Source of the DNA: a virus | Length of the DNA stretch: 42,534 nt | Reading direction: 5' to 3' (one strand) | Virus record (IMG/VR): IMGVR_UViG_3300017971_000443 | Location: 1 to 42,534 of that record | Shown: one piece after another, positions 682 through 31,129 of the stretch | Layout of the letters: each line of letters starts with the position of its first letter | Numbering within the stretch: position 1 is the stretch's first letter | Program-made: the position numbers and the translations under genes | Notes under the pieces: generated by a model | What the model saw: the letters and a program-made list of their open reading frames with translations, nothing else | Told to the model about the DNA's origin: nothing | Database searches by the model: none

Positions 682-1479
682 TTACTCCCAAAGTCTACCG
701 TCTCTTGTTTCCCAAGTGCTAAAGAGATAAGTCAATTCTAGAGATTCGTCATCGCAGCCTACCAAAATCCCATCTCCTTTACCTTCAAAAATGTAGATAT
801 ACAAAGTCAAATCGTCTGCACGATATACTTCCGCTCCTCGGCTAAGAGCCTCTACCTCAATATCATCCAGGATACATTTAGTCTCCGTATATCGCTCTGT
901 TCTTTGTCTAAACTCCTTATGCTTTTGCCCCGTGATGTTTAAAGCAACCGTAGCAGCCTCCCCATCCGGAGTCGCTCCAGAAACATCCCCGCTCAAGGAG
1001 AATACCCCAAACCATTTGGGAGCATTTAAGGTCTCTATGATAGGAGTTTTTGAGCTAGTTCCAATTTCTTGGAATGTAATCTTACCCTGCTTACTTTGGT
1101 TTCCCCCTCCAGCCGCCTTAATCATATTGCCATTCTCTCCGATGAGCTGCAAAACGGAAGGCTTTAGGGCGTTTGTTTCCGCCTTAATTCTTCCAAACAA
1201 CTCCTCATGCTCATTAATGGCTGCCCGAATCGCCTCTGCCTTTTCCTCAGAAGAACACCCCTTACACAAAGGCACATCTACAACTTCCGTAAAGGTGGAA
1301 TTCCCATCATTTCGTTTATAGCAGATGTAGATTTTTTCTACCGCTGTCTTTTTTGGAGGAGACATTTCCGCTACAAACAAAGGATTTCCATCATCCCCAG
1401 GCTTTGCTAAAAGAGAAATAGACAGCCAAGCAGCAAGAGCTACTACAACAAACAGGATTACGTAAAATTTAGTTCTCAT
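682..1479 (-). CDS. Membrane-anchored hypothetical protein
   Basis: The 265-residue product starts with a basic MRTK and a hydrophobic stretch (residues about 5-25, FYVILFVVVALAAWLSISLL), which suggests a signal anchor with the remainder outside the cytoplasm. There is no lipobox. A charged region and a cysteine pair (LCKGCSS, about residue 72) follow. The start overlaps the 3' end of the sigma-like gene by 11 bases, implying translational coupling. I recognise no family. An envelope or superinfection-exclusion role would fit a membrane-anchored early phage protein, but that is speculation. Confidence 0.75.
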   Translation of the reverse strand: MRTKFYVILFVVVALAAWLSISLLAKPGDDGNPLFVAEMSPPKKTAVEKIYICYKRNDGNSTFTEVVDVPLCKGCSSEEKAEAIRAAINEHEELFGRIKAETNALKPSVLQLIGENGNMIKAAGGGNQSKQGKITFQEIGTSSKTPIIETLNAPKWFGVFSLSGDVSGATPDGEAATVALNITGQKHKEFRQRTERYTETKCILDDIEVEALSRGAEVYRADDLTLYIYIFEGKGDGILVGCDDESLELTYLFSTWETRDGRLWE

Positions 1480-2305
1480 CTTTTACCTCACAAAATGCTT
1501 CATATTTTTTTAGAAAAGCAGAAACAGTCCAAGTCGTATCGACTTTGAAACTCTGCCTTGAGCCGTTTTTCTCCTTCTTTCTCATATATCCCCCCCGTCG
1601 AATTCGGCATTTCAAGCAATTTAATTCTCCTTTATTATTTGTGTAAAATCTCTCTGGATTTAGCCCTGTCTTTTTTCTCTGTTCTAAAGGCATAACTACT
1701 TCGTTTCCACATATACTACAATATTTTTCTCTGCTTTTTGGTATATGGAAAAGTTCCAACAGTTTTCCTTTAGCTTTTTTTACTACAGAAAAAGCTGAAG
1801 TATCTCCCAGATTTCTTTTCTTTGCTATCTCTAAAAGAGTAAACCCTTTTAAATAATGGTCCTTCAGCACAGCCTCTTCTGCATACGTTAGCCCTCTCTC
1901 CTTTACAGCTTTCTCTATCATCTTACGGACATCAATAGCGATATCAATATCCCCCCACCGAACTTGTAATGTAGGGTTATCAAACTCCTCAGCAGCGTCC
2001 CTTCCCCATCTTCGTCTAGTTTTTAGCAGATTGTAAAAACTTCCGACGATTCTTTTTACAGAGAAAGTAGTTAAAGGGCATTTCCTGTTCCACTTTTTTA
2101 TGTGTTTGCATACTTCAAAATTCGCTTCCGAGATTAATTCCTCTACAGAAACCCAACCTGGGAATCTAGCAACAAACTTAGTAGCCAGATGCACGATATA
2201 CTTGGAGATTTTCAGTACAGGATCTTCCTCGAAATCCCCTAACTCCTCTGCTTGGTGGAGTTGGCCTAAGTACCAAGTAAGATGTTCATTTTTTGTAGCT
2301 ATCAT
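1469..2305 (-). CDS. Sigma-70-like RNA polymerase factor with C-terminal zinc ribbon
   Basis: The 278-residue product looks like a minimal sigma factor. Its N-terminal half (ISKYIVHLATKFV, then SVEELISEANFEVCKHI and a basic LLKTRRRWGR segment) resembles sigma region 2. A helix-turn-helix like region 4 follows (EEAVLKDHYLKGFTLLEIAKKR). After it lies an unusual zinc-ribbon-like tail with CSIC and, about 27 residues later, CLKC. I chose the ATG at 2305 over an in-frame ATG at 2338, because 2305 follows the previous stop by one base and has a GAAAGAAG purine tract upstream. It would direct host RNA polymerase to a subset of phage promoters. It could instead be a transcription regulator that only shares the sigma-like fold. 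Confidence 0.65.
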   Translation of the reverse strand: MIATKNEHLTWYLGQLHQAEELGDFEEDPVLKISKYIVHLATKFVARFPGWVSVEELISEANFEVCKHIKKWNRKCPLTTFSVKRIVGSFYNLLKTRRRWGRDAAEEFDNPTLQVRWGDIDIAIDVRKMIEKAVKERGLTYAEEAVLKDHYLKGFTLLEIAKKRNLGDTSAFSVVKKAKGKLLELFHIPKSREKYCSICGNEVVMPLEQRKKTGLNPERFYTNNKGELNCLKCRIRRGGYMRKKEKNGSRQSFKVDTTWTVSAFLKKYEAFCEVKDEN

Positions 2306-2306
2306 G

Positions 2307-2891
2307 CTACTTCTTTCTAAAAAACCCAAGGTCCACAAAAGGTAAGGACTGAATCTTACTCATCCCGCCGCCGAGGTTCAGGAGCTTGATATCAAATCCA
2401 GCCAAGTAATGTTGAAGCATATCCAAAGCCCCGTCCATCTCTTTTAGGTGTTTGCCCATATGATGGGTCTTCGTATCCAAGTCTACTCCCAAGAGGCCGA
2501 TACGCTCTGCCCCCAAGTATACCGCTAATCCTATCGCACAAAAGGGGCTCATTTTAAGTTTAGGGAATACCTTGGAAGCACATTTATCGATATAGTCCTC
2601 TCCGTCTTTTACTTCAGAAAGGAAATGACAGGTCTCGAAGGTGTTGATACTCTTAGGATTTTTAAACTCCCATTGGTGGGCATTGTAAGTCCAGATATCA
2701 GCATAAGCGTCTTGGATAAAATCCAGTCTCCCGCTCTTGATAAAGCAAGAGGGTCTATCCATTACGAAGACTGTATCCGGAGTAAAATACCGAGAGATAT
2801 CATTTACGCCTATCGTATTATACTGAGGCAATAGGTCTATCCATCGGTTAAGAGAAAGCCCTAAGCCACAGATGATGAAGTCTTTACTCAT
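2307..2891 (-). CDS. Rossmann-like protein, DUF115/glycosyltransferase-like
   Basis: The 194-residue product starts with a beta-strand/glycine turn (DFIICGLGLSL) followed by TIGVNDISRYFTPDTVFVMDR. This is the pattern of G-x-G-P-S-L proteins of the DUF115/MAF flagellin-modification group and related phage proteins. A later segment, GAERIGLLGVDLD, looks like a second Rossmann strand with an acidic end. The reaction is unknown; a nucleotide-sugar or pterin-related role would be guesswork. Its stop lies one base from the sigma-like gene start. Confidence 0.55.
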   Translation of the reverse strand: MSKDFIICGLGLSLNRWIDLLPQYNTIGVNDISRYFTPDTVFVMDRPSCFIKSGRLDFIQDAYADIWTYNAHQWEFKNPKSINTFETCHFLSEVKDGEDYIDKCASKVFPKLKMSPFCAIGLAVYLGAERIGLLGVDLDTKTHHMGKHLKEMDGALDMLQHYLAGFDIKLLNLGGGMSKIQSLPFVDLGFFRKK

Positions 2892-7282: not shown

Positions 7283-7444
7283 TTAAGCCTTTACAGAATC
7301 AAGTAATTTTTGAAAATGTTTTATACAATCCTCGCAAAAAGTAGAGACGCAAGCATGTATAAGTTTTCCTTCCTTTCTGGTACCACAATAATCACAACAC
7401 GTTCTAGACTTATCCAATTCGTTAACGATAATCTGTTTAACCAT
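7283..7444 (-). CDS. Small zinc-finger protein
   Basis: A 53-residue product with CCDYCG (residues 16-21), then C32, C37 and C40 (HACVSTFCEDC), the spacing of a small treble-clef or ribbon zinc site. The ATG overlaps the helicase stop by eight bases (ATGGTTAA). It is too short for most gene finders but well supported by motif and coupling. Confidence 0.65.
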   Translation of the reverse strand: MVKQIIVNELDKSRTCCDYCGTRKEGKLIHACVSTFCEDCIKHFQKLLDSVKA

Positions 7445-9521
7445 CACTAAATTCCCCGAATCTTTCTCTAATTTTCCTACGTTCTGTAAAATTCAAATCC
7501 AACACCCTATCCCCCCTCGCTCTTAAAAACCCTGGGGAATAAATCTTAGGCATTGGGTCATACGCTGCGAGTATCGTCTTCTGGTCCAATCCTGAAGTCT
7601 CATGAGCATACAAAGCATCATTCAAACATCCAGCCATCAAGAGATGGTCAAAGTCCGTGACGACACATCTCCAAAAATCTACGGAGTCTGATAGTTGCCC
7701 CGTTCGATGATGCCTCCCCAAAAGCTGGTGAGCTAACTGAGCAGGTCTAGGCCATTGCACTACGAAGGACTTCGCTAGGTACTGCATATTGGTTCCTTCA
7801 GCGTGAGCGAAGGAGCAAACGAGTACTTTACCTTTGTTGTTTTTGGAGTCCTCTGCTATCGTATTATACTTCGCTCCAGCAGGGCAATGGACTACCCGCT
7901 TACGCCCTAGAACCTTCCTCAGCTCCTCTACCAACCATAGGCCAATCTCTATGTTTTCGTACCAGATTGCCTCCGTTTCCTTCTTAGAAAAAACGGATTC
8001 CGCCCATACGGTTGCGGCTCTGATTTTGTAGTCACAAACTCGCACTGCACGACTAACCCGTTTAGGCATTCCATCGAATTCCATGTCTCGCATCTTTCGC
8101 CAAACTGCCGCAAGAGTGTGCCCAACTCTTTTATTCCCGTTCCTTGCAATTTCACGATCAACGAGGAGGGGGGTATCGTAACCCTTTCGTGATCTATGAT
8201 GGAGGAAATCCCTAAGCTCACGATTGTAGCCTTGTTTGATTTTGTGGTGAGCTTTTGCTCTTTCAAGTCGGCTTCTAGCTTCTCTGATATCGATGTGGTC
8301 CCTTGCATGGTCCGCTACCTCCTCGTCTGTAGGCCAAATGAGTTCGTTATAAAACCCGCTCGATAACTCCTTGAGCCATTTAAACTTATGAATAGCCCAA
8401 TCTATCTCATCCCCGTTAGGTGTACGCCAAAATTGTTCTACTTCTCCTATTAACTCTTGTATTTTATCATACCCGTCAAAACTAGTCGGGTCTGGTATAG
8501 TCCAATTAAATATATTTAAAGAGGCTTCGCATTCACTCTCCCCCGATATCACTACTCCGGGGGCTGTTTTAAGGCGCATCTGATACGCCTCTCGATACCC
8601 CGAAGTAATCGGCGGGAATTCGCCCTCTGGAAACTCTCTCTGCGCCCAGTACCGTAGGGGGTCCAACATCCTAGCCGCTAATTTACCCTGAAATACGGAG
8701 TCCGAGTCCAGTATCCTCCCCCAGTCCTTTAGCAAACTCCCACTTCGAGGCAAGGGAGTTAAATCCCCAAGCGCAGCCCTAAGTAGATGGGCATGGTCTA
8801 AGAGCTTCTTCTTGGTCATGGTCCCGGACATAGGATAAAACAAAGGGCTTTTATCTTTGATAAAACGAAACAGCCTTTTCGTTCTAGCGGATTTTGCATT
8901 GGCTAAATTGTGAGCCTCGTCTGATATAACCGCTATTGGGGATATTTCGTTTATTAAGTCCTCAGCATCCGTTGTGCTTAAATATGAGTAAGGAAACAGA
9001 TAAACCCCAGGTCTATCGCTCTTCGCCTTCCTCATCCGAGTCTTTTGGTCTAAGCCTCCCATAGGTACAAAAGGGGGCAATTCCGGGAGTACTTTCCTGG
9101 CAAAAGGTATATGGTAGTTGGGATAGGAGTTGAAATTCTTCGATGGCATAAGATACAATATCTTATGTACACCCTTAGACCATAATAGTTGAGCGACAAT
9201 TAGACCCGTTAAGGACTTACCATTCCCAACTCCTAACCCTCCTACCATACAACTGTACTCTAAGTACTCATAGATTGCCTTAGCCTGGGAGGTAAACAGC
9301 CTCCGCCCTTCTGCGTATATCTCAGGCTTTAGCACCCTTGCGTTAATCTTTGCAAAATCCTCATCGGAGAGCAACTCTTCCCTGGGCAAAGAGAGAATAC
9401 GATCCATCTCGCCTCGATCTCCTACATCCCCTTTCGAGGTATTTTGAAGGAATGCAGAGAAGTTCTTTTTGGGTTGCTCTTTAGGCTTTTGGATACTCGA
9501 TATTTTGGAAGCGAAACCCAT
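7437..9521 (-). CDS. SF2 (DEAH-box, SNF2-like) helicase
   Basis: The 694-residue protein has the core superfamily 2 motifs: Walker A GVGNGKS (97-103) after a Q-like segment (FTSQAKAIYEYL), DEAH at 201-204, motif III MSGTMT (231-236), and a C-terminal motif VI QLLGRHHRTGQ (599-609) with two arginine-finger candidates. The single ATP-driven motor would remodel or unwind replication intermediates. The order nuclease, unknown protein, helicase, SSB-like, PolA is a common phage replication arrangement. SNF2-type rather than replicative-hexamer architecture is inferred from the motif set. Confidence 0.88.
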   Translation of the reverse strand: MGFASKISSIQKPKEQPKKNFSAFLQNTSKGDVGDRGEMDRILSLPREELLSDEDFAKINARVLKPEIYAEGRRLFTSQAKAIYEYLEYSCMVGGLGVGNGKSLTGLIVAQLLWSKGVHKILYLMPSKNFNSYPNYHIPFARKVLPELPPFVPMGGLDQKTRMRKAKSDRPGVYLFPYSYLSTTDAEDLINEISPIAVISDEAHNLANAKSARTKRLFRFIKDKSPLFYPMSGTMTKKKLLDHAHLLRAALGDLTPLPRSGSLLKDWGRILDSDSVFQGKLAARMLDPLRYWAQREFPEGEFPPITSGYREAYQMRLKTAPGVVISGESECEASLNIFNWTIPDPTSFDGYDKIQELIGEVEQFWRTPNGDEIDWAIHKFKWLKELSSGFYNELIWPTDEEVADHARDHIDIREARSRLERAKAHHKIKQGYNRELRDFLHHRSRKGYDTPLLVDREIARNGNKRVGHTLAAVWRKMRDMEFDGMPKRVSRAVRVCDYKIRAATVWAESVFSKKETEAIWYENIEIGLWLVEELRKVLGRKRVVHCPAGAKYNTIAEDSKNNKGKVLVCSFAHAEGTNMQYLAKSFVVQWPRPAQLAHQLLGRHHRTGQLSDSVDFWRCVVTDFDHLLMAGCLNDALYAHETSGLDQKTILAAYDPMPKIYSPGFLRARGDRVLDLNFTERRKIRERFGEFSDG

Positions 9522-11611: not shown

Positions 11612-11971
11612 CTAATTTGTCCCCAAGAAAAGATTTACGATATGCCATTTAGGGGCAAACCAAGCAGATACACAAAAATCAAAAGAAGCAATTGGAACAA
11701 CTATTACAACAATAACAGAGGCTAAAATAGCTACTGTATGAAAAGTATCCAAAAATACATCCCGTTCTTCTCCCCTCCAATATCGAATACTAAAAACACC
11801 AATAACAGCAAAAGCTAACGTAATAGCCCACGCCCCTAAAGCCTCTATTCGGTGGAGTAAAAGCATCTGTTGAATTACTTCTGGAGCTTCTTCGATAGCG
11901 AAATCGACTCCAGCTTTCAGCTTATCTACTAGATAAACTACCGCCTCATTAAGTTTTGCTTCTGTTTCCAT
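11612..11971 (-). CDS. Small membrane protein with two transmembrane segments
   Basis: The 119-residue product has an amphipathic N-terminal helix (residues 1-40) and two hydrophobic stretches, about 44-63 (ALGAWAITLAFAVIGVFS) and 77-97 (TVAILASVIVVIVVPIASF). It is a plausible holin-like or membrane-tethering protein, but its place in the replication unit argues against a lysis role. The leader contains tandem 13-bp repeats that include its Shine-Dalgarno (AAGGA). Confidence 0.7.
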   Translation of the reverse strand: METEAKLNEAVVYLVDKLKAGVDFAIEEAPEVIQQMLLLHRIEALGAWAITLAFAVIGVFSIRYWRGEERDVFLDTFHTVAILASVIVVIVVPIASFDFCVSAWFAPKWHIVNLFLGTN

Positions 11972-11977
11972 TAATCT

Positions 11978-12021
11978 GGTCCTTAAATTTGGTCCTTAAA
12001 TTTGGTCCTTAAATTTGGTCC
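11978..12021. repeat. 13-bp tandem repeat (GGTCCTTAAATTT)
   Basis: Three perfect copies of GGTCCTTAAATTT start at 11978, 11991 and 12004, and GGTCC recurs at 12017, giving an exact 13-bp period. On the coding (minus) strand each copy supplies an AAGGA Shine-Dalgarno-like element in front of the membrane-protein gene. The array fills the gap to the DnaJ-type gene stop. It shares its 13-bp period and RGTCC core with the array at 19913-19969. Confidence 0.9.
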
Positions 12022-12269
12022 TATTTCTTATTCCTCATCAAGCCTTCTAATTTTCTCAAATTAAACCACTTCTTCTTCTCATCTCCAGAGCCCCAACACC
12101 GATCACAGATCCCCTTGGTCATCATTTGACCCCCAATTCCTCCTGCCCACATAGAAGTACTAGGATAAGTATACACCCCATACCCATTACATTTTTTACA
12201 TACCTTCTCTATCCCTCTCCGCTCTAGCATATGCTCCCAGAATTCTTCTCCCGTTTCTTGACTTTTCAT
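12021..12269 (-). CDS. DnaJ-type zinc-finger protein
   Basis: The 82-residue product has two C-x2-C-x-G-x-G knuckles, CKKCNGYG (about residues 24-31) and CDRCWGSG (about 55-62), which together form a DnaJ-like cysteine-rich zinc domain. There is no J domain, so it is not a co-chaperone as such. It overlaps the primase-helicase stop as ATGA, so it is probably co-translated with it and may act in its complex. Confidence 0.75.
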   Translation of the reverse strand: MKSQETGEEFWEHMLERRGIEKVCKKCNGYGVYTYPSTSMWAGGIGGQMMTKGICDRCWGSGDEKKKWFNLRKLEGLMRNKK

Positions 12270-14893
12270 CCTTCCGCCTTTCTAATAAACTCCCTCATTT
12301 CCTTCATCCGCTCCCCCCCTAAGAGCCTTACCAAGTTCCCATGAGAGTACCCTTGTCTTTCCGCTTCCTCCTGCAATAGCTTCAGGTCCAACTCCCTCCA
12401 TACCAAGTTCTCGGACTTCCCCCCTCCTACTAACGGCATTCTCTTCTTAATCGGCTCTGAGGCTACCAAAGAACTCAAAGCCTTTCGGACTGCCTCTTGG
12501 CTAAACTTCGTGGAGGGGAATTGCATCCTAAGCGCCTCCATCACTCCCGAATTGGTCATATAAACCTTTCCGGAACCGTCATCGATGGACAATCCTCGGC
12601 TAACTGGACTCTCCATCTCTAGTAGATTTATAATAGCCTCAACCAATTTAGGGGCGATTCCAGCACGTACCTTCATCTCTTTAATTAGGCTACTATTCAT
12701 TGGGCCTTCAACCAAAAATCTACTTCCTGGCGGATATTCATGTCTTTTAACAGTATACATCCACATTAAGTGTTTGGCAACTATAAAATCACTTTTTTGT
12801 CCAGCATCCCCGCCTACCCATCTTCTTCCCGGCTTCCCCGTATAGGATAACCCCCCTAACGCCTTTAGATAATGCGCGGCCTCGGCTTGGGCTTTTAAGT
12901 GGATGAGCCTCTGCGATAGAGCCTCTTGGTCGTCCAGGGTGAGTTCCCGATAGAGAAAAATTTGCCGTATGGCATCAAAATTATTGGATGTAAAAATAAC
13001 CCGGAGCGGGTTTCTGATTTTGATCCTATCTTTGAATTTCGGCTCAACCTCAATTTCATCCCCTCCCGTTAATCTTCTAAATGTGTCTGCAATGTCTATA
13101 CCGTTCACTCTACCTTTCGGTAATCCCTCGTTTACGACTACAAAACATGTCTTTAATAGGTTATTGTTAAACTTCTCAAAGTCCTTGCCTGTAGCATGGA
13201 CCCCCGTATCCAGGCATTCCTCCAGCCCTCGAACCAGCATCTTCTTCCCGCAACTGGCGGCTCCTGCTAGACTTAGAGCGGCTATTGGGCCTTCCATGAA
13301 GTTCAAGGAGTGAGCCAACCAAGATTCTAATAGATACCAATCCTCCGGTTTGACTAGCTTTTGTAGCCATAGGTCTACTTCGTCTGAGTATTTAGGTTCT
13401 AGGTCTTTTCGAAGTTTATACATATTGATTACCAAAGATGCGTTCGCCCCATCGATGTCTTTAATCGTATACCCATCTGCCGCTAGAGAACCGAACAACT
13501 CCCGCACCTTCGTACCATGATGTTTTAGCATGGTAGCTGCGGGAATCTGTTTAACCCCCTTCTCTGTAGTGATTTCTGTTTGTATGATATCATCCATCTC
13601 TTGTCGTTTGATGATAGCGGGAAGCTCGATAGTCTTATTGGTGGAGGAGGGATGGTAAAAACCGTTCTCCTGCATGATGTAGTAATCGGTAGCAGTCATA
13701 CAGATAGCGTGTTCTAAGGCGAATTGCCTACGCTCCCAGGCTGTATCAGAGTGGATAGCAGGATGGTCGCACCATTTTTGCATATTTGATACTATTCTAT
13801 CAATCTTCGAGTCTACCTTTATCTTATCCCGCTCTGATTTCGCCTCCTCTTTGGCGTAATATTTTAGTACGGCACTCCATAGGGTTTCCGTCCAGTCGGG
13901 GTGCTGTACGTCCGGTGTAAGGAAGCTAACAGAGCCGAAAAGGAGGGCGTAGATCCCTTCTGGCGAATAGCTGGATATACCGCTAAGGAGCCTAGAAATT
14001 TGTCCTGCATATCTCTGGATTGTTTGATCTCGCTCTCCTTCCTCTCCGATTGGTTGGTCTTTGAAGACTGCATCATAACATTCCCTTCCTTGTAGTAAAA
14101 ACTTAGCGGCCTTAAACCACTTGGTACTAATCTTGCGTCCTGTCTCGGATTGAGTCCATAGTATTGCCTCTACCTCCTCTGGTGTAGGTTTGGGCACATC
14201 TGGTATAACATAAGGTATAACTTCCTCTGGGTTTTTTGTGACTCCTGCGGCTGGAAAACTTTCCGGATCTAGTCGATTTTCGACATTTTCTTGGAAGAAG
14301 TAAAAGGGGTCTTCCCAGGTCCGCTCCCCTCCGCGAGTCACTTGCGGGAGTCTAAATACTCTCGTCCAGTCCCATAATCCATCGTCTACCACTATCCACT
14401 TAGGCATCTCTGTTTTGAATAACCGTAGGAGTCCTCGCATCATAGGTTCCGATTCCGTAACCTTAACAGGTCTGGTAAGAGCCCATATTAGCCTAGCTCC
14501 ATGACGAGTCGTATAGAAGTAAGTCGGCTCTGGGATGGGGAAAGAGTCTTTCGGTTTAGCAAAGAGCGTATCGAGAGCATAGAGGAAGTTCTCTAGTAAG
14601 TTCTCGGTCCACTTCGTATGTCCAGGCGTATCGATATCTATAGCGAATACGTCTATCTCCGGTATATGATTAGGGACGAGGGCAGGTAGTATTTCCTTTG
14701 TAAGGATAGGGCCTACCTGCCCTTTGGGGTGTCTATGAGCGAAGAAGTGAGCATCACACTTCCATCGAGTATGCAGAGCTTTCGCTAGGGAGTATACAGG
14801 CCAAGCGTATATCCTCCTAGGATCTTCTTTTAAGTTCAGTCCTTTAGCGCGGGAGGGAGTCTGGCTATTCGTTATTCCGATTCGTGGTTTGAT
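12266..14893 (-). CDS. AEP primase fused to SF3/D5-like helicase, apparent ATC start
   Basis: The 875-residue product joins an archaeo-eukaryotic-type primase to a D5/SF3-like helicase. Motif I is FAIDIDTPG, motif II lies in TTRHGARLIWAL and motif III in WIVVDDGLWDW. The helicase part has a Walker A-like GAASCGKK (about 544-551, with lysine where Ser/Thr is usual) and Walker B VVVNEG (about 585-590). The first ATG in frame (14443) lies between motifs II and III, so a start there would destroy the primase. The frame is open back to the TAG at 14905-14903. Between them there is no ATG, GTG or TTG. An AGGAG at 14904-14900 lies six bases before an ATC (14893-14891), which I take as the start. Amber read-through of the preceding gene, which is in the same frame, is an alternative. 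Confidence 0.85.
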   Translation of the reverse strand: MKPRIGITNSQTPSRAKGLNLKEDPRRIYAWPVYSLAKALHTRWKCDAHFFAHRHPKGQVGPILTKEILPALVPNHIPEIDVFAIDIDTPGHTKWTENLLENFLYALDTLFAKPKDSFPIPEPTYFYTTRHGARLIWALTRPVKVTESEPMMRGLLRLFKTEMPKWIVVDDGLWDWTRVFRLPQVTRGGERTWEDPFYFFQENVENRLDPESFPAAGVTKNPEEVIPYVIPDVPKPTPEEVEAILWTQSETGRKISTKWFKAAKFLLQGRECYDAVFKDQPIGEEGERDQTIQRYAGQISRLLSGISSYSPEGIYALLFGSVSFLTPDVQHPDWTETLWSAVLKYYAKEEAKSERDKIKVDSKIDRIVSNMQKWCDHPAIHSDTAWERRQFALEHAICMTATDYYIMQENGFYHPSSTNKTIELPAIIKRQEMDDIIQTEITTEKGVKQIPAATMLKHHGTKVRELFGSLAADGYTIKDIDGANASLVINMYKLRKDLEPKYSDEVDLWLQKLVKPEDWYLLESWLAHSLNFMEGPIAALSLAGAASCGKKMLVRGLEECLDTGVHATGKDFEKFNNNLLKTCFVVVNEGLPKGRVNGIDIADTFRRLTGGDEIEVEPKFKDRIKIRNPLRVIFTSNNFDAIRQIFLYRELTLDDQEALSQRLIHLKAQAEAAHYLKALGGLSYTGKPGRRWVGGDAGQKSDFIVAKHLMWMYTVKRHEYPPGSRFLVEGPMNSSLIKEMKVRAGIAPKLVEAIINLLEMESPVSRGLSIDDGSGKVYMTNSGVMEALRMQFPSTKFSQEAVRKALSSLVASEPIKKRMPLVGGGKSENLVWRELDLKLLQEEAERQGYSHGNLVRLLGGERMKEMREFIRKAEG

Positions 14894-14902
14894 CTTAGTC
14901 TC

Positions 14903-15070
14903 CTATATATTATCTTTCGCGCCTTCTTCGTATCCTCTTGCGTATCCTTTTTCGTATCCTTCTTTCAGTGCGGCCTTTATAAGAATATCGTAATTCGTAA
15001 TGGCCAGATTTTCGTCTTTGAATTCGTCAAACCAAATATCTATCCAATCTTTACCTAGTAAGTATTTCAT
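14903..15070 (-). CDS. Small cargo protein of the cassette array, G-Y-rich tail
   Basis: The 55-residue product MKYLLGKDWIDIWFDEF ends in KEGYEKGYARGYEEG. The open frame reaches upstream to 15166, but that part is the shadow of the zinc-ribbon gene in another frame, so I start at the ATG 15070. The glycine-tyrosine tail resembles that of the cargo gene at 15267-15488. Its TAG overlaps the Shine-Dalgarno of the primase-helicase. Confidence 0.55.
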   Translation of the reverse strand: MKYLLGKDWIDIWFDEFKDENLAITNYDILIKAALKEGYEKGYARGYEEGAKDNI

Positions 15071-15096
15071 ATTTGTAAATCCTATTTGCCATTTTT

Positions 15097-15267
15097 CTAG
15101 TCCTCTTCTGTTTCTGATACCTTCTTCCCAGTCCTTAGTTTGTAGTCCCTCTTCGTAGAATCCCACTGTGAGGCACCGAAGACTCTACATCTCCAGCATA
15201 GGGGCTTGTAGGAGTCTCTCCCGCACCCCTCACAGCAATAGATTTTACGTTTACGCTTCTTAGTCAT
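15097..15267 (-). CDS. Zinc-ribbon protein, array copy A
   Basis: A 56-residue protein begins MTKKRKRKIYCCEGCGRDSY and ends TGKKVSETEED. Cysteines C12, C15, C24 and C27 (CEGC and CWRC) form a compact zinc ribbon after a strongly basic N-terminus, which suggests nucleic-acid binding. Its ATG overlaps the preceding stop as TAATG. It differs from copy C by only about eight bases in 171, with one amino-acid change (S/T), so purifying selection or recent duplication is likely. Confidence 0.8.
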   Translation of the reverse strand: MTKKRKRKIYCCEGCGRDSYKPLCWRCRVFGASQWDSTKRDYKLRTGKKVSETEED

Positions 15268-15529: not shown

Positions 15530-15610
15530 CTATCCGCTACTAAAGGGTTTGTAGGAGTCCCTCCCACACCCCTCACAGCAATAGATTTTACGTTTACGCT
15601 TCTTAGTCAT
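15530..15610 (-). pseudogene. Truncated zinc-ribbon gene, array copy B
   Basis: The first 22 codons match copies A and C (to SYKP), then the sequence diverges and stops at TAG after 26 codons, losing the second cysteine pair. The shared ending (GAAGAGGACTAG, encoding EED and stop in the intact copies) reappears at 15491-15502. An internal segment has therefore been deleted or replaced. It still provides the start/stop coupling between its neighbours. Confidence 0.75.
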
Positions 15611-15813
15611 TACTCTTCAGCTTCAAAAGACATGCAATGTGCCCCTATTCCAGCTATTGCATCATACCCATTATGTATAAACGTATGAAAAAAAGCATTA
15701 TCACCATCAAACAACCATTCTTTTTCTACTTTCGCAAAGTACTTATATATCTTATTAAATAAATAACAAGTATCTATATGTTTACAATCAGTACAGGTTT
15801 CTTCTTTACCCAT
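15610..15813 (-). CDS. Cysteine-rich cargo protein of the cassette array
   Basis: A 67-residue product (MGKEETCTDCKHIDTCYLF) with CTDC, a third cysteine six residues on and a fourth near the end (AHCMSF), so a probable zinc site. It is a distant paralog of the protein at 475-678, sharing cysteine order, the CYL motif and an internal FF. I use the ATG at 15813, two bases after the zinc-ribbon copy C stop, rather than the upstream in-frame codon that lies inside that gene. Confidence 0.7.
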   Translation of the reverse strand: MGKEETCTDCKHIDTCYLFNKIYKYFAKVEKEWLFDGDNAFFHTFIHNGYDAIAGIGAHCMSFEAEE

Positions 15814-15815
15814 TT

Positions 15816-15986
15816 TTAGTCCTCTTCTGTTTCTGTTACCTTCTTCCCAGTCCGTAGTTTGTAGTCCCTCTTCGTAGAATCCCACTGTGAGGCACCAAAG
15901 ACTCTACATCTCCAGCATAGGGGCTTGTAAGAATCTCTCCCACACCCCTCACAGCAATAGATTTTACGTTTACGTTTCTTAGTCAT
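15816..15986 (-). CDS. Zinc-ribbon protein, array copy C
   Basis: A 56-residue protein nearly identical to copy A, with the same basic N-terminus and CEGC/CWRC pairs, and threonine for serine near the C-terminus. Its stop is TAA where copy A has TAG. The start overlaps the upstream gene by eight bases. The GAGGA at its 3' end acts as Shine-Dalgarno for the following cargo gene. Confidence 0.8.
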   Translation of the reverse strand: MTKKRKRKIYCCEGCGRDSYKPLCWRCRVFGASQWDSTKRDYKLRTGKKVTETEED

Positions 15987-18466: not shown

Positions 18467-19180
18467 TTATATAGATATCTTTATGTCTTTCTCTTTACAT
18501 AAGGCTCTAAAGAGCTGTTTATGGTTTAGTTTTGGCTTCCCTGGTTTCCATATCTTGTAGTCTTCGTTGAAAAAGAATTCCCGTTCTGCGTTTTCAAATG
18601 GGCGAGTGGCTTTGTGTGTGATACTTTGTTCGTCTAATTTGGATTCCCTTGCCCATTTATTCATTGCGGGGATGCCCACAGATACAGCATCCCATCTCAT
18701 AAGTTCTAGGGTTAATTTATCAGAGACTCTACCCCAATAAAAGCGTAAGAGATTAAGGATAGCATATTTCGCGCCTCTGAGGTCTGCGCCTCTGAGGTAT
18801 GCGCCTGTGAGGTATGCGCCTCTGAGGTCTGCGCCTCTGAGGTCTGCGTCTCTGAGGTCTGCGTCTCTGAGGTATGCGTCTCTGAGGTATGCGTCTCTGA
18901 GGTATGCGCCTGTGAGATATGCGCCTCTGAGGTCTGCGTCTCTGAGGTATGCGCCTCTGAGGTATGCGCCTCTGAGGTCTGCGCCTCTGAGGTCTGCGTC
19001 TCTGAGGTCTGCGCCTGTGAGATATGCGCCTCTGAGGTCTGCGCCTGTGAGGTCTGCGTCTCTGAGGTCTGCGCCTCTGAGGTCTGCGCCTGTGAGGTCT
19101 GCGTCTCTGAGGTCTGCGCCTCTGAGGTATGCGCCTCTGAGGTCTGCGTTCGGTTTAATTTCATACCCATTTACTTTCAT
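18467..19180 (-). CDS. Pentapeptide-repeat protein
   Basis: After MKVNGYEIKPN the 237-residue product has about 25 uninterrupted A(D/Y)L(R/T)(G/D) pentapeptides, then a roughly 100-residue unique C-terminal domain (FYWGRVSDKLTLELM to the end). Pentapeptide repeats fold as a right-handed quadrilateral beta-helix. Members such as Qnr and MfpA bind gyrase as DNA mimics, but most phage members have no known target. AGGAG seven bases before the ATG supports the start. It is the first gene leftward of the control region. Confidence 0.9.
   Translation of the reverse strand: MKVNGYEIKPNADLRGAYLRGADLRDADLTGADLRGADLRDADLTGADLRGAYLTGADLRDADLRGADLRGAYLRGAYLRDADLRGAYLTGAYLRDAYLRDAYLRDADLRDADLRGADLRGAYLTGAYLRGADLRGAKYAILNLLRFYWGRVSDKLTLELMRWDAVSVGIPAMNKWARESKLDEQSITHKATRPFENAEREFFFNEDYKIWKPGKPKLNHKQLFRALCKEKDIKISI
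18774..19148. repeat. 15-bp tandem repeat array inside the pentapeptide gene
   Basis: About 25 direct copies of a 15-bp unit (tctgaggtctgcgcc on the plus strand) vary at only three positions, each giving D/Y, R/T or G/D. The DNA is far more uniform than the protein requires, which points to recent expansion or homogenisation. The repeat leaves frames open on both strands. Confidence 0.95.
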
Positions 19181-19224
19181 TTTAATACTCCTATCGTTAT
19201 TAAGTGTCCTCCTTAACTAATCGA

Positions 19225-19252
19225 ATACTACCATATAAAAAAAGATTTGCAA
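19225..19252 (-). promoter_or_regulatory. Probable leftward promoter of the pentapeptide gene
   Basis: On the minus strand TTGCAA (19252-19247) and TAGTAT (19230-19225) are 16 bases apart, each matching consensus at four of six positions, with TGG immediately upstream of the -10. It lies about 45 bases before the pentapeptide-repeat start codon in an AT-rich stretch. Confidence 0.5.
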
Positions 19253-19744
19253 AAATAAAAAATAAAATTATTTTGTGAAAAGTGCTAAAATGCGAGCTTT
19301 ACCCCGATTCCCACCCTTAGAAGGGCGGTGTTGACACTTGTAATTGGGTGATCTAGCCGTAAACAGGTAGTATGGGGGGTGTATGAGTCGGTCCCAACGT
19401 AAATACGGCTCGAATATGGAGGTTAGGAGCGAAAATTGTCAACTATAAAATGCCCTCCCAGGTGTAAACCTTTATGGCCCTTGGGGTTAGAGCTAAGTCT
19501 AATTATATTCATACTCCCGCCAGAAGTCCTTATACCGTAAGGTATTATGTCAAAGCGGGAGGCGGGAGCGCAAAAACCATTTCTAGATCACAAATAAGTT
19601 AAGCGTGATTTATTTAATTACATTAAATTTAAATTAAAAGACATTAAATTAAAACCCTTTACTCATTTTCGATCTCATTAGGTTTAAAATTGCTCCCAGG
19701 CTCCCAGATTTAGGTAAACCTTTAGAACTTATGACGGTTAGAGC

Positions 19745-19772
19745 GGGATCTGGTGTTCTCCCACTAGATCCC
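19745..19772. other. Stem-loop in control region
   Basis: GGGATCTGGTG pairs with CACTAGATCCC in an 11-bp stem (one G-T pair) around a six-base loop. It has no T-run on either side, so a structural or protein-binding role is more likely than termination. Confidence 0.65.
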
Positions 19773-19800
19773 AAAACGGTTGTAAACCCTTGGTATTAAA

Positions 19801-19840
19801 CAAAACGTGCGGGAGCGCACACTTTTTATGTTTCGTTTTG
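19801..19840. other. Nested inverted repeats in control region
   Basis: CAAAACG (19801-19807) and CGTTTTG (19834-19840) enclose a second hairpin, GTGCG-GGAG-CGCAC (19807-19820), which is followed by CTTTTT. The inner hairpin with the T-run could terminate rightward transcripts. Alternatively the nested structure belongs to an origin. Confidence 0.55.
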
Positions 19841-19912
19841 GTAACGCTTTTTGGCTCTTATCAGGAATCATTCCTATTAGTAGAACTTAGACGTCATTTA
19901 TATAGGGTAAAA

Positions 19913-19977
19913 AGTCCGAAAAATGAGTCCGGAATTTAAGTCCATTAAATCAGTCCTGATGGGCAGTCCTTTGAATG
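19913..19977. repeat. Five AGTCC motifs phased at exactly 13 bp
   Basis: AGTCC occurs at 19913, 19926, 19939, 19952 and 19965, each followed by eight variable, mostly AT-rich bases. The exact period with diverged spacers looks like an iteron array in which only the core contact is conserved. The same 13-bp period with GGTCC appears at 11978-12021. Confidence 0.8.
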
Positions 19978-20022
19978 GCATTTAATTAGGTGGTCAGGAT
20001 CTGGTGACCAGAAACTGGTGAG

Positions 20023-20039
20023 TGTACAGAATCTGTACA
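20023..20039. promoter_or_regulatory. Operator-like perfect palindrome
   Basis: TGTACAGA-A-TCTGTACA is a perfect 17-bp dyad. It lies immediately downstream of the leftward promoter at 20043-20071, near its expected transcription start, where a dimeric repressor could block it. No repressor gene is recognised in the window. Confidence 0.65.
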
Positions 20040-20042
20040 TAG

Positions 20043-20071
20043 TTTACATAATGTAAAAATAGAAAAGTCAA
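20043..20071 (-). promoter_or_regulatory. Leftward promoter overlapped by a palindrome
   Basis: On the minus strand TTGACT (20071-20066) and TGTAAA (20048-20043) are 17 bases apart. The weak -10 lies in a perfect palindrome, TTTACAT-A-ATGTAAA (20043-20057). The dyad covering the -10 suggests repression by a dimeric protein. A transcript from here would have a leader of roughly 850 bases before the first leftward gene. Confidence 0.5.
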
Positions 20072-20122
20072 GGAAAAAATAATTTTATTTCTCGGTCTTT
20101 TGTTTGGCATTATGTTTGCTAT

Positions 20123-20138
20123 GTAAAGCCGATTTTAC
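20123..20138. promoter_or_regulatory. GTAAA-N6-TTTAC dyad
   Basis: GTAAA-GCCGAT-TTTAC matches the geometry of the dyad at 20152-20167 (same half-sites and six-base spacer) and lies 29 bases from it, just downstream of that leftward promoter. Probably a second binding site for the same protein. Confidence 0.55.
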
Positions 20139-20148
20139 CTTTTTGTAA

Positions 20149-20177
20149 AGTGTAAAGTGGGTTTTACGTTTTGTCAA
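20149..20177 (-). promoter_or_regulatory. Leftward promoter with dyad in its spacer
   Basis: On the minus strand a perfect TTGACA (20177-20172) and TACACT (20154-20149) are 17 bases apart. The spacer holds a GTAAA-N6-TTTAC dyad (20152-20167), so a bound dimer would sit between -35 and -10. It is the better of the two tandem leftward promoters here. Confidence 0.6.
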
Positions 20178-20215
20178 GTAAAATTTTTTATTTTTTAGTA
20201 GACGGGAATAGGGGA

Positions 20216-20229
20216 TAGGGTATAATAAA
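20216..20229 (+). promoter_or_regulatory. Rightward -10 element (TAGGGTATAATAAA)
   Basis: A perfect TATAAT at 20221-20226 lies about 50 bases before the first rightward gene. No good -35 exists at 16-18 bases, so activation or a different sigma factor may be needed. Its surroundings, TAGGGTATAATAAA, are identical to those of the strong leftward promoter at 16548. Confidence 0.5.
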
Positions 20230-20275
20230 AGAGTAAGGATATTTAATTTAATGTCATTTAAAGAAAGGTAATAAG

Positions 20276-20431
20276 ATGGTAGTAAGTATAGAAGAGATAC
20301 AGGAGAGGTTAGACAGCGGAGATGCTAAGATAGTTGATAAGGTCTGCACTGGCGTGGTTTGGCCGGAAGGAGATCATTATTTGGTTATTGAGGATTATAT
20401 TGATCAATGCGTTAAACACGTTATTATTTAA
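20276..20431 (+). CDS. Small acidic hypothetical protein
   Basis: A 51-residue product, MVVSIEEIQERLDSGDAKIV and then VWPEGDHYLVIEDYID, is the first rightward gene. GAAAGG seven bases before the ATG supports it, and the same TTTAAAGAAAGGT leader precedes the next gene. No family recognised. Confidence 0.65.
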   Translation: MVVSIEEIQERLDSGDAKIVDKVCTGVVWPEGDHYLVIEDYIDQCVKHVII

Positions 20432-26705: not shown

Positions 26706-28214
26706 TTGAGGGATCGTTATGTTATCTCTGAAATTAGAGAGAGGGGATTTGAACCTCCCGATATTATAAAACAATTATCAGAGAAAATAGGAGGGAGTAT
26801 TCAAGCTGTGCTAACGCCATTCCAAGAGATTTATAGCGAGTTTAGGGACGACATCTTTAAGTTTGCCGCCCTTATAGGTTTCGAACCAACTTGGCAACAA
26901 GCGGAGATTATGAAATGTGTACAATGGGAAGAAACTATAGCAAAACCAGAACAAAAGCTACGCCGTATTGCAGTCAAATCTGGTCAGGGGCCTGGGAAAA
27001 CCGCACTTACAACGGTTCTTGCCCTTTTTCGGCAGTTCAGACATCCTGGGGCGTGGTGCGTTGTTATGGCTCCTTCAGAGAAACAAGCGAAGAATTGGCT
27101 GAAAGAATGCGAGCGGTCTCTAGAACATGCTCCGGAATTTCTAAGAGCAATGGTTAGAGCCCAGAAGAAGGTAATCTCATTCTTGGGAGATGGGAAATAC
27201 GCTATCGAAGTAGCTACCGCCGCAAAGAAAGAGAACGCCGCTGGAGTCCATCACCCTTACCTTACAGTAATTATAGATGAGGCGACCGGGGTTGACCGGG
27301 AAATTATCGAAACATGCTTAGGGACTATGACACAACCCGGAAACCTCATCTTTTTAATCTCGAATCCTACGGACCGGGATACGGCGTTTTTTGATTGTTT
27401 TAACGAACAGCAACACCTTTGGCATACGTTTACCTTTAACTCGGAAGAGTCGCCTATCGTAGACAAAAACCACATCAAGGCGCTGGAGGACCAATACGGT
27501 AGAGACTCAGACTTGTATCGCTTTAGGGTATTGGGGAAATTCCCGAAGGTGGATCGAGATACCGTTATCAATATAGACGATTTACATGCCTGTACGAAGA
27601 CCGACCCTTACCGTTGCGCTATGATGTTGGACCGCTCTAAGCAGGTAGGGATAGACCTAGCCAGATTTGGAAGCGACGAATCTGTCGTTTATGCGCGCTC
27701 AGGTGGAACTGTAGTAGACACAAAGATTTACACCAAGACGGAACCAATTACGGTGATTTTGGAGGCGTTTGAACGACAAAAATCTCTTGGTTGGTCTGAT
27801 GATGTCGTGAAATATGTACAGGATATGGGAGGCTTGGGAGGGGGGCTTGCTTATAATTACCATGACCGAGGGAAGCAGATTTTAGAGTTTTACTTCCATG
27901 CTCACGCGCATAATTCGAAGGATTACCAGAATAAGATTACGGAGGCGTACTTCCATTTTTCGAATTTGTTAAAGCAGAGGAAGGTTCATCTAAAGTATGA
28001 TAGGCTATTGTTCCATCAATTGTCTTCCAGGAAGTATGAGGCCCCTAAAGGAAGGCTGAAGCTGGAGACGAAAGAGAAGTTTGCGGATAGGAATAACAAG
28101 ATGTCCCCCGATAGAGCAGATGCTATGGTATTAACTTTTTATTATATGACTGGTTCTGGAGGGATTATTACGACGAAACGCTCAGATAAGAGGGTGGGGG
28201 TACAATTGAGGTAA
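26706..28214 (+). CDS. terL: Terminase large subunit
   Basis: The 502-residue DNA-packaging motor has Walker A SGQGPGKT (92-99), Walker B LTVIIDEA (186-193) and a motif III/coupling segment (NLIFLISNPTD). The C-terminal RNase H-like nuclease begins with D317 in VGIDLARFGSDES and ends with an acidic SPDRADAM. Translation starts at TTG, behind GGAGGA. This enzyme cuts concatemeric DNA and pumps it into procapsids. Unusually, no portal or capsid gene follows it. Confidence 0.95.
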   Translation: MRDRYVISEIRERGFEPPDIIKQLSEKIGGSIQAVLTPFQEIYSEFRDDIFKFAALIGFEPTWQQAEIMKCVQWEETIAKPEQKLRRIAVKSGQGPGKTALTTVLALFRQFRHPGAWCVVMAPSEKQAKNWLKECERSLEHAPEFLRAMVRAQKKVISFLGDGKYAIEVATAAKKENAAGVHHPYLTVIIDEATGVDREIIETCLGTMTQPGNLIFLISNPTDRDTAFFDCFNEQQHLWHTFTFNSEESPIVDKNHIKALEDQYGRDSDLYRFRVLGKFPKVDRDTVINIDDLHACTKTDPYRCAMMLDRSKQVGIDLARFGSDESVVYARSGGTVVDTKIYTKTEPITVILEAFERQKSLGWSDDVVKYVQDMGGLGGGLAYNYHDRGKQILEFYFHAHAHNSKDYQNKITEAYFHFSNLLKQRKVHLKYDRLLFHQLSSRKYEAPKGRLKLETKEKFADRNNKMSPDRADAMVLTFYYMTGSGGIITTKRSDKRVGVQLR

Positions 28215-30547: not shown

Positions 30548-31129
30548 TTACGCTGATTTAGTATAGAAAAGGGTACAATACCCAGTAGAATCATCTCTAT
30601 CGCTTTCTACTTTTATTATTACATTAGTGTCATTGATCTGGAGCTGGACATTTGAGGATGCTACTGTAGAAACTAAAGGAACTGGGTTTTGATTTCCTGC
30701 GGTTTCGTTATTAATCCAACATTCGTGTTTTATTACCAAATCCAAATTGGAAATACTGTGGGCTACAGATTTAGTTCCTGTAGCTGCTGTAGGGAGGGTT
30801 CCTAAGTCTATAGTCTTTTGATAAATCCTAGGATAAGACCCGGATAACCAGTCAATTCCTGTATCTTGTTCTGAGGTACTGTAATCTAGAGTAGTTGCTG
30901 ATTTCTTTACCCAGGTAGATCCGTTAGAGACGTAAATTTCGTGGGTATCCGCCGTAATAGCCATACAATCATCATAAGAAGAGGCGGTATAAGTAGAGGT
31001 TAGGGTAGATAAGTCAGCTACTTGAAATACGGGCGTAGGCGCATCAAAAATGGCCTGGAAATTTGCATCTGTGGGTCCATCCCAAGCTTCCGCTAAGGAT
31101 CCAATTGCTTGTCGTTCTGGTCTACTCAT
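30548..31129 (-). CDS. Tail fibre or tail-tip associated virion protein
   Basis: The 193-residue product ends in a domain I associate with phage tail or fibre proteins: TGIDWLSGSYPRIYQKTIDL, SVAHSISNLDLVIK and a final GYCTLFYTK. The N-terminal part (CMAITADTHEIYVSNGSTW) looks like a repeated beta module. It follows the tip protein gene directly and ends the tail unit, where receptor-binding proteins often lie. Confidence 0.65.
   Translation of the reverse strand: MSRPERQAIGSLAEAWDGPTDANFQAIFDAPTPVFQVADLSTLTSTYTASSYDDCMAITADTHEIYVSNGSTWVKKSATTLDYSTSEQDTGIDWLSGSYPRIYQKTIDLGTLPTAATGTKSVAHSISNLDLVIKHECWINNETAGNQNPVPLVSTVASSNVQLQINDTNVIIKVESDRDDSTGYCTLFYTKSA

Follow-up and report, generated by a model that had tools for sequence, protein, structure and literature searches.

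The window, i.e., the whole stretch of 42,534 nucleotides analyzed here, is an IMG/VR virus record of an uncultured phage and carries a leftward and a rightward set of genes that diverge from a common control region. The leftward set encodes a primase (DUF5906; 12266..14443, minus strand), a PD-(D/E)XK exonuclease, a helicase (7437..9521, minus strand), a family A polymerase, and a sigma-70 region 2 protein (Sigma70_r2; 1469-2338, minus strand). The primase belongs to a replication operon that is common to the array-bearing relatives described below. The large terminase is encoded on the plus strand (26706-28214). The noncoding control region (19181..20275) is a gap of about 1.1 kb (1096 nt) without an assigned gene, as the last start of the leftward genes is at 19180 and the first start of the rightward genes at 20276. 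This agrees with the original prediction, which had placed a set of short repeats in a gene-free region where transcription diverges. The first gene to the left of the control region (18467-19180, minus strand) encodes a pentapeptide-repeat protein and has around 25 units of 15 bp. Further left, the segment 14903-15975 contains near-identical repeated stretches, with two look-alike small genes (14903-15166 and 15610-15885) that have the same start region. No tRNA genes were found in the window. The search of the window with Rfam gave nothing at gathering thresholds, and three low-scoring hits within the control region (E 1.3-2.7) are far under threshold.

Two phased arrays in the window

The first array (array 1; 19913..19977, minus strand) lies inside the control region. 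The word AGTCC occurs on the plus strand at 19913, 19926, 19939, 19952, and 19965, every step being exactly 13 bp, and the 8-nt spacers between the five copies are variable, with a mean identity of 0.21 to 0.42 (in its two four-copy stretches, measured in L008, a contig that is 100% identical). Both the phase and the variability of the spacers are as originally reported. The accompanying claim that such phasing is unlikely by chance also held when we made 1000 dinucleotide-preserving shuffles of 19181-20275 and searched them for any 5-mer at spacings of 6-60: the longest phased run had 3 copies, versus 5 observed, and none of the 1000 shuffles exceeded 3. The unit of array 1 is better taken as GGACT, its form on the leftward strand, than as AGTCC, and the distance from the array to the next leftward gene is 737 nt.

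The control region has six promoter-like hits, which is not clearly above chance (shuffle mean 3.7, sd 1.9). One of these candidates faces left (TTGACA-17-TACACT; 20149..20177, minus strand) and lies upstream of array 1, which would make the array part of a transcribed leader. Another (TAGACG-16-TATAAT; 20199..20226, plus strand) faces right. The left-facing site is overlapped by a 29-bp direct repeat (20122-20179), which is imperfect and contains TGTAAAG words. Two neighbouring perfect inverted repeats, operator-like in appearance (20023-20039 and 20043-20057, with arms of 8 and 7 nt and 1 nt between the arms), sit between array 1 and the rightward genes. The segment 19160-20300 had no match in the phage and plasmid DNA collections, and the sole record that keeps the DNA flanking array 1 is identical to the window.

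A second array (array 2; 11978..12021, minus strand) had been missed in the original prediction, as had the GGACT reading on the leftward strand. It consists of four GGACC boxes (RGTCC on the plus strand) with a 13-bp step and near-identical spacers, and Tandem Repeats Finder gives its extent as 11973-12022. Array 2 sits in a 49-nt gap between two leftward genes, and its last box is 11 nt before the ATG of the gene directly downstream (11612..11971, minus strand). This gene encodes a protein of 119 aa with hydrophobic stretches, as judged by eye; it has no Pfam match and belongs to PHROG 3054, a family of unknown function. We scanned the window, outside the pentapeptide-repeat gene, for 4-mers repeated at least four times at fixed spacings of 9-29. 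The scan returned array 1 and array 2 (both at 13 bp and with GTCC inside), the low-complexity words TTAA at 15 and TTTT at 21, and nothing else. Over the whole window, GGACT generally exceeds expectation on the leftward strand (87 occurrences for around 48 expected) and hardly does so on the other one (28 for 24 expected).

Box, pitch, and strand in other genomes

We searched sequence collections for four copies of RGTCC at 13 bp and found them in 23 viral records. The controls were more abundant, with 45 records for the reversed core at 13 bp and 57 for four copies of RGTCC at 14 bp. Arrays as such are hence not enriched, and most of them are plain tandem copies. Arrays with unlike (degenerate) spacers, i.e., with a mean spacer identity of up to 0.5, were found in 8 of the 23 records, versus none of the 45 with the reversed core and none of the 57 at 14 bp. 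One of these eight records is the window's own phage (L008), and four have the array in open reading frames (L005, L011, L014, L019). The three left after these exclusions (L020, L026, L027) are the only ones, among nine further records tested, that match the large terminase (TerL) of the window (40-43% identical), and in all three the array and the terminase have the same relative orientation. One record with more alike spacers (L023) has replication proteins in common with the window. In bacterial genomes, among the matches listed (at least 80 loci), 79 of 80 were above 0.5 spacer identity and one had unlike spacers. Arrays of RGTCC at 13 bp in which TTG precedes the core, mostly near-perfect copies, were seen in the other phage contigs L013 (6060-6111, adjoining an integrase gene), L016 (6513-6577), and L025 (3-119).

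We also collected relatives without reference to the array, using a profile of the helicase, which gave 48 loci in 47 records. The pattern GGACT-N8-GGACT was present in 13 of these 47 records, with 48 pairs that are all on the helicase strand, versus 2 pairs for the reversed core; the other 34 records have no GGACT pair at 13 bp. Ten of the 13 pair-bearing records had not been found via the array (two of the ten have identical helicases). We ranked 928 combinations of 5-mer and spacing after leaving out the three array-selected loci, four near-duplicates, and a coding motif in a GGDEF gene. GGACT at 13 bp came first, with 12 pairs in 6 loci versus a mean of 1.0 at other spacings. In the set collected by TerL, where many contigs are short, 3 of 50 further records had a match, as did 3 of 50 for the control, and only the array-selected G004 has many. 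The bearing records are scattered on a quick version of the helicase tree, which implies loss, transfer, or repeated gain of the arrays. The same word and step are found in several dispersed lineages of this uncultured group of phages, in genomes of 42-70% GC, with replication proteins that are only 25-45% identical and with free spacers. Conservation of the 13-bp phase in relatives had been proposed as a check in the original prediction. The phages concerned have almost no isolated relative: the 50,697 phage records contained a single helicase relative (25.5%).

To describe the boxes we used 11 bearing records, which were chosen for having pairs, and 8 non-bearing ones. In the former, the early strand has 60 GGACT pairs at 13 bp and the opposite strand has 0; the latter have 0. 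In the bearing records, a spacing of 14 gives 3 pairs, and the harmonic at 26 gives 26. Arrays of at least three GGAC number 22 on the early strand, at least two of which are the GGDEF motif, and 0 on the other strand; the non-bearing records have 0 and 0. The first copies are of the form GGACTn and the later ones are mostly GGACTC, the final C being present in 87% of the middle copies and 73% of the last ones. Some of the GC-rich records then have a third box, GGACGC or GGACAC. A single phage can have several arrays (two in the window, five in G001, and four in G004), which have unrelated spacers and share the word and the step.

The position of the arrays was compared with shifted positions, leaving out up to 8 arrays judged to be coding (in the GGDEF motif, the helicase, or other long genes). 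Among 33 arrays, 14 are near a start (4.8 for shifted positions, sd 2.0) and 17 are mostly noncoding (4.4, sd 1.9), values that none of the 1000 shifts reached. Several arrays fill short gaps between genes of the same strand, which leaves little room for a promoter. Genes in the relatives were called with a home-made caller. When starts are chosen blind to Shine-Dalgarno sites, 12 of the 33 arrays have a start nearby and 21 do not. Eight of the 12 have their nearest box 9-14 nt before the start (five at exactly 11), a register that is weaker evidence than it looks, since GGA at -9 to -14 resembles any Shine-Dalgarno site and any xTG-GAC start makes a box at +2. Six of the 12 start-adjacent arrays are in one phase, a figure that we discount: the G of the start codon is part of any box at +2, which biases the count towards that phase from the outset. 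GGACT itself has only a modest peak at starts. In predicted folds the boxes are no more unpaired than the spacers (0.45 vs 0.45), and the leaders share no secondary structure.

Comparison with known repeats of actinophages

Dispersed repeats near early genes have already been described in actinophages, and the arrays are a related kind of element, here arranged in rows whose phase is strict and whose conserved core is very small. We recognised no description of a 13-bp phased GGACT or AGTCC array in the literature searched by title and start of the abstract. The closest known elements are start-associated sequences (SAS) and stoperators, the former being the nearest. SAS were reported in cluster K mycobacteriophages as oriented, short, asymmetric repeats at the ribosome-binding position of non-structural genes (PMC3203893). 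In cluster EF Microbacterium phages they have the same anatomy, and their consensus, GGGAAAGGACCCC, contains AAGGACC (PMC7302621). According to these accounts, SAS are conserved beyond what pairing with 16S rRNA needs (PMC3203893, PMC7302621), and their function is described as unproven (PMC12699233).

Like SAS, the arrays are asymmetric and in one orientation (22 to 0). SAS lie within a few nucleotides of start codons, at the ribosome-binding position; of the 33 arrays, 12 have a start nearby (8 of these with a box at -9 to -14) and 21 have none, with a clear excess over shifted positions. SAS are described as a single 13-bp site in which most positions are conserved (GGGATAGGAGCCC or GGGAAAGGACCCC), whereas the window's element has around 5-6 conserved nucleotides, GGACT(C), with free spacers and in 13-nt-phased rows of 2-6 boxes. 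Also unlike SAS, some arrays are far from any start, one of them in the divergent control region. We have not filed the element as SAS, since the single long conserved site that defines them is absent; it may work like them. The repeats of 17-18 nt of the actinophage clusters O, EC, and EG are likewise intergenic and of unknown function. In the descriptions consulted, the EC motifs share a single orientation and lie 21-30 bp ahead of starts, the O and EG repeats have dyad symmetry, and none of the three is presented as a phased array.

How the arrays may be read

The arrays are probably a switch for early genes that is read by a protein, rather than a replication origin. A conserved core, free spacers, a strict step, and a fixed direction point to a protein that binds head to tail. 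In the reading that we favour, with a probability of roughly 40%, such a protein would set the timing of the early genes, its most likely point of action being the leader or the ribosome-binding site. The 5-nt boxes, which have a direction (GGACT, often GGACTC, when read along the early transcript) and keep a strict 13-nt pitch both in the control region and in the leaders or short gaps that precede the early genes of this uncultured group, would be bound side by side and in one direction by a sequence-specific protein made by the phage or the host. The bound protein would set when the downstream early genes are expressed, presumably by repressing them. It would most likely do so on the leader of the transcript, where, if an array meets a start, the nearest box usually has the Shine-Dalgarno position and, in some genes, the next box falls on the start codon itself, so that the row of protein would cover the ribosome-binding site. 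An action on RNA rather than on DNA is suggested by the excess at starts, the boxes at the Shine-Dalgarno position, the short gaps with little room for a promoter, and the restriction to one strand. An action on DNA is suggested by array 1, which is in the control region and 737 nt from the next leftward gene, by the rigid pitch, and by the parallel with the operators and stoperators of cluster A. A more elaborate form of the favoured reading, which we consider rather unlikely, is a control code in which the row of protein on the early mRNA, with one GGACU per 13 nt, would be phased to the start codon (boxes at -24, -11, and +2) and the length of the array would tune translation.

The main rival places the same head-to-tail row on DNA, and we regard it as a tentative but serious possibility. 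A phage repressor would bind asymmetric 13-bp sites as operators and roadblocks, in the manner of stoperators, and with array 1 at an early promoter and array 2 and the arrays of the relatives between genes, it would stop initiation and elongation one-way. This would give a single anatomy to the control region and the short gaps, always oriented with transcription, and the fixed step of 13 bp, with 14 being rare, suits rigid double-stranded DNA. The cluster A repressors are reported to bind such sites: their operators and stoperators are described as asymmetric, of 13-14 bp, located at promoters and in short intergenic spaces, and oriented with transcription, their orientation being important for function (PMC9283540, PMC6550527). 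The window's element has this asymmetry, orientation, and location in short gaps, and array 1 would be at a promoter if one judges from its location alone. Stoperators, however, are described as single, dispersed, non-cooperative sites bound by a monomeric immunity repressor of temperate phages, and not as phased arrays. The records have little sign of lysogeny, as neither an integrase (present in 1 of 19) nor a typical repressor (HTH_3 over the cut-off in 1 of 19) was found in most of them. In addition, roadblocks on DNA do not ask for the excess of arrays at start codons.

The original prediction had proposed an iteron array contacted by a repeating protein. The second half of this proposal has fared well, since the arrays look like sites for a repeat-bound protein, but we find it improbable that they are the iterons of an origin bound by the primase-helicase or by another initiator. 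Like the iterons of plasmid and phage origins, array 1 is made of tandem directional repeats at a fixed step in a noncoding control region, in this case a divergent one of 1.1 kb, and a primase, a helicase, and a polymerase are encoded by the phage itself. In the window, cumulative GC skew changes course at 17-18 kb, adjoining array 1, a signal that gene direction confounds. Yet the arrays do not form one cluster: they are dispersed before and among the early genes, bound to one strand, and favour gaps and early-gene starts. Moreover, in most relatives the divergent control region has instead tandem repeats of other periods and words, and relatives without arrays possess this primase and helicase too.

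We also give little credence to a row of Shine-Dalgarno-like or standby sites for which the host ribosome would be the sole reader, without a dedicated protein. Such sites would explain why the box nearest to the start is at the Shine-Dalgarno place, and the AAGGACC of array 2 partly pairs with the usual tail of 16S rRNA. Against this, the conserved C and T that follow GGA presumably find nothing to pair with in the usual anti-Shine-Dalgarno sequence, arrays of five or six boxes and array 1 are located away from starts, and the peak of GGACT is modest. This modest peak also led us to reject GGACT as a plain Shine-Dalgarno variant. Finally, chance combined with replication slippage, in which decayed 13-bp tandem duplications would carry an inherited or coincidental word and part of the pairs would be coding, fits the near-perfect tandem copies that make up most array matches, in bacterial genomes too (79 of the 80 among the matches listed), the pairs inside the GGDEF motif, and the near-identical spacers of array 2, but it is very improbable, and for the relatives taken together it has in large part been refuted. 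Against it stand the shuffles, the reversed-core and 14-bp controls, the first rank among 928 combinations once the coding motif was masked, the strand exclusivity of 22 to 0, and independent arrays that have unrelated spacers and the same word and step.

With so exact a pitch, the mechanism lends itself to simple tests, and the box can be used as a bait for the reader protein. The comparison of bearing and non-bearing records gave no clean candidate for a co-occurring regulator, and the analysis of 82 early proteins with Pfam and PHROGs gave no clear DNA- or RNA-binding regulator. As co-occurrence revealed no reader, it would be either small and fast-evolving or encoded by the host. The best co-occurring family, present in 10 of the 11 bearing and 2 of the 8 non-bearing records, was rejected: its copy in the window (30548-31129) is outside the early region and was taken as a late protein. 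We also rejected an array of sigma-factor promoters, as Sigma70_r2 is over the cut-off in the window only (1 of 19 records; among the others, 17 have none and one has a weak match). GGA sites for a phage-encoded CsrA/RsmE were dropped, with the CsrA family in 0 of 19 phage records and no sign, in the predicted folds, of boxes presented in hairpin loops. Arm sites of a tyrosine integrase were considered, an integrase being beside the arrays of L013 and L027, yet an integrase is present in only 1 of the 19 records. A resemblance of TCGAGTCC to the T-arm of tRNAs, noticed by eye, was set aside, since only part of the arrays have TCGAGTCC.

Two further features of the relatives were noted. An early gene encoding a GGDEF protein (diguanylate cyclase) is conserved in five phages (G031, G038, G039, G051, and G052). 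The one of G039 is L411:5522-6097 (Pfam E 4e-17), and the GGACT pairs of G038, G039, G051, and G052 fall inside the GGDEF coding motif. The control regions of G024, G031, G043, G047, G052, and G056 have phage-specific tandem repeats, mutually unlike and with units of 8-27 bp, and such repeats, in or near divergent noncoding regions, are candidate origin or partition sites.
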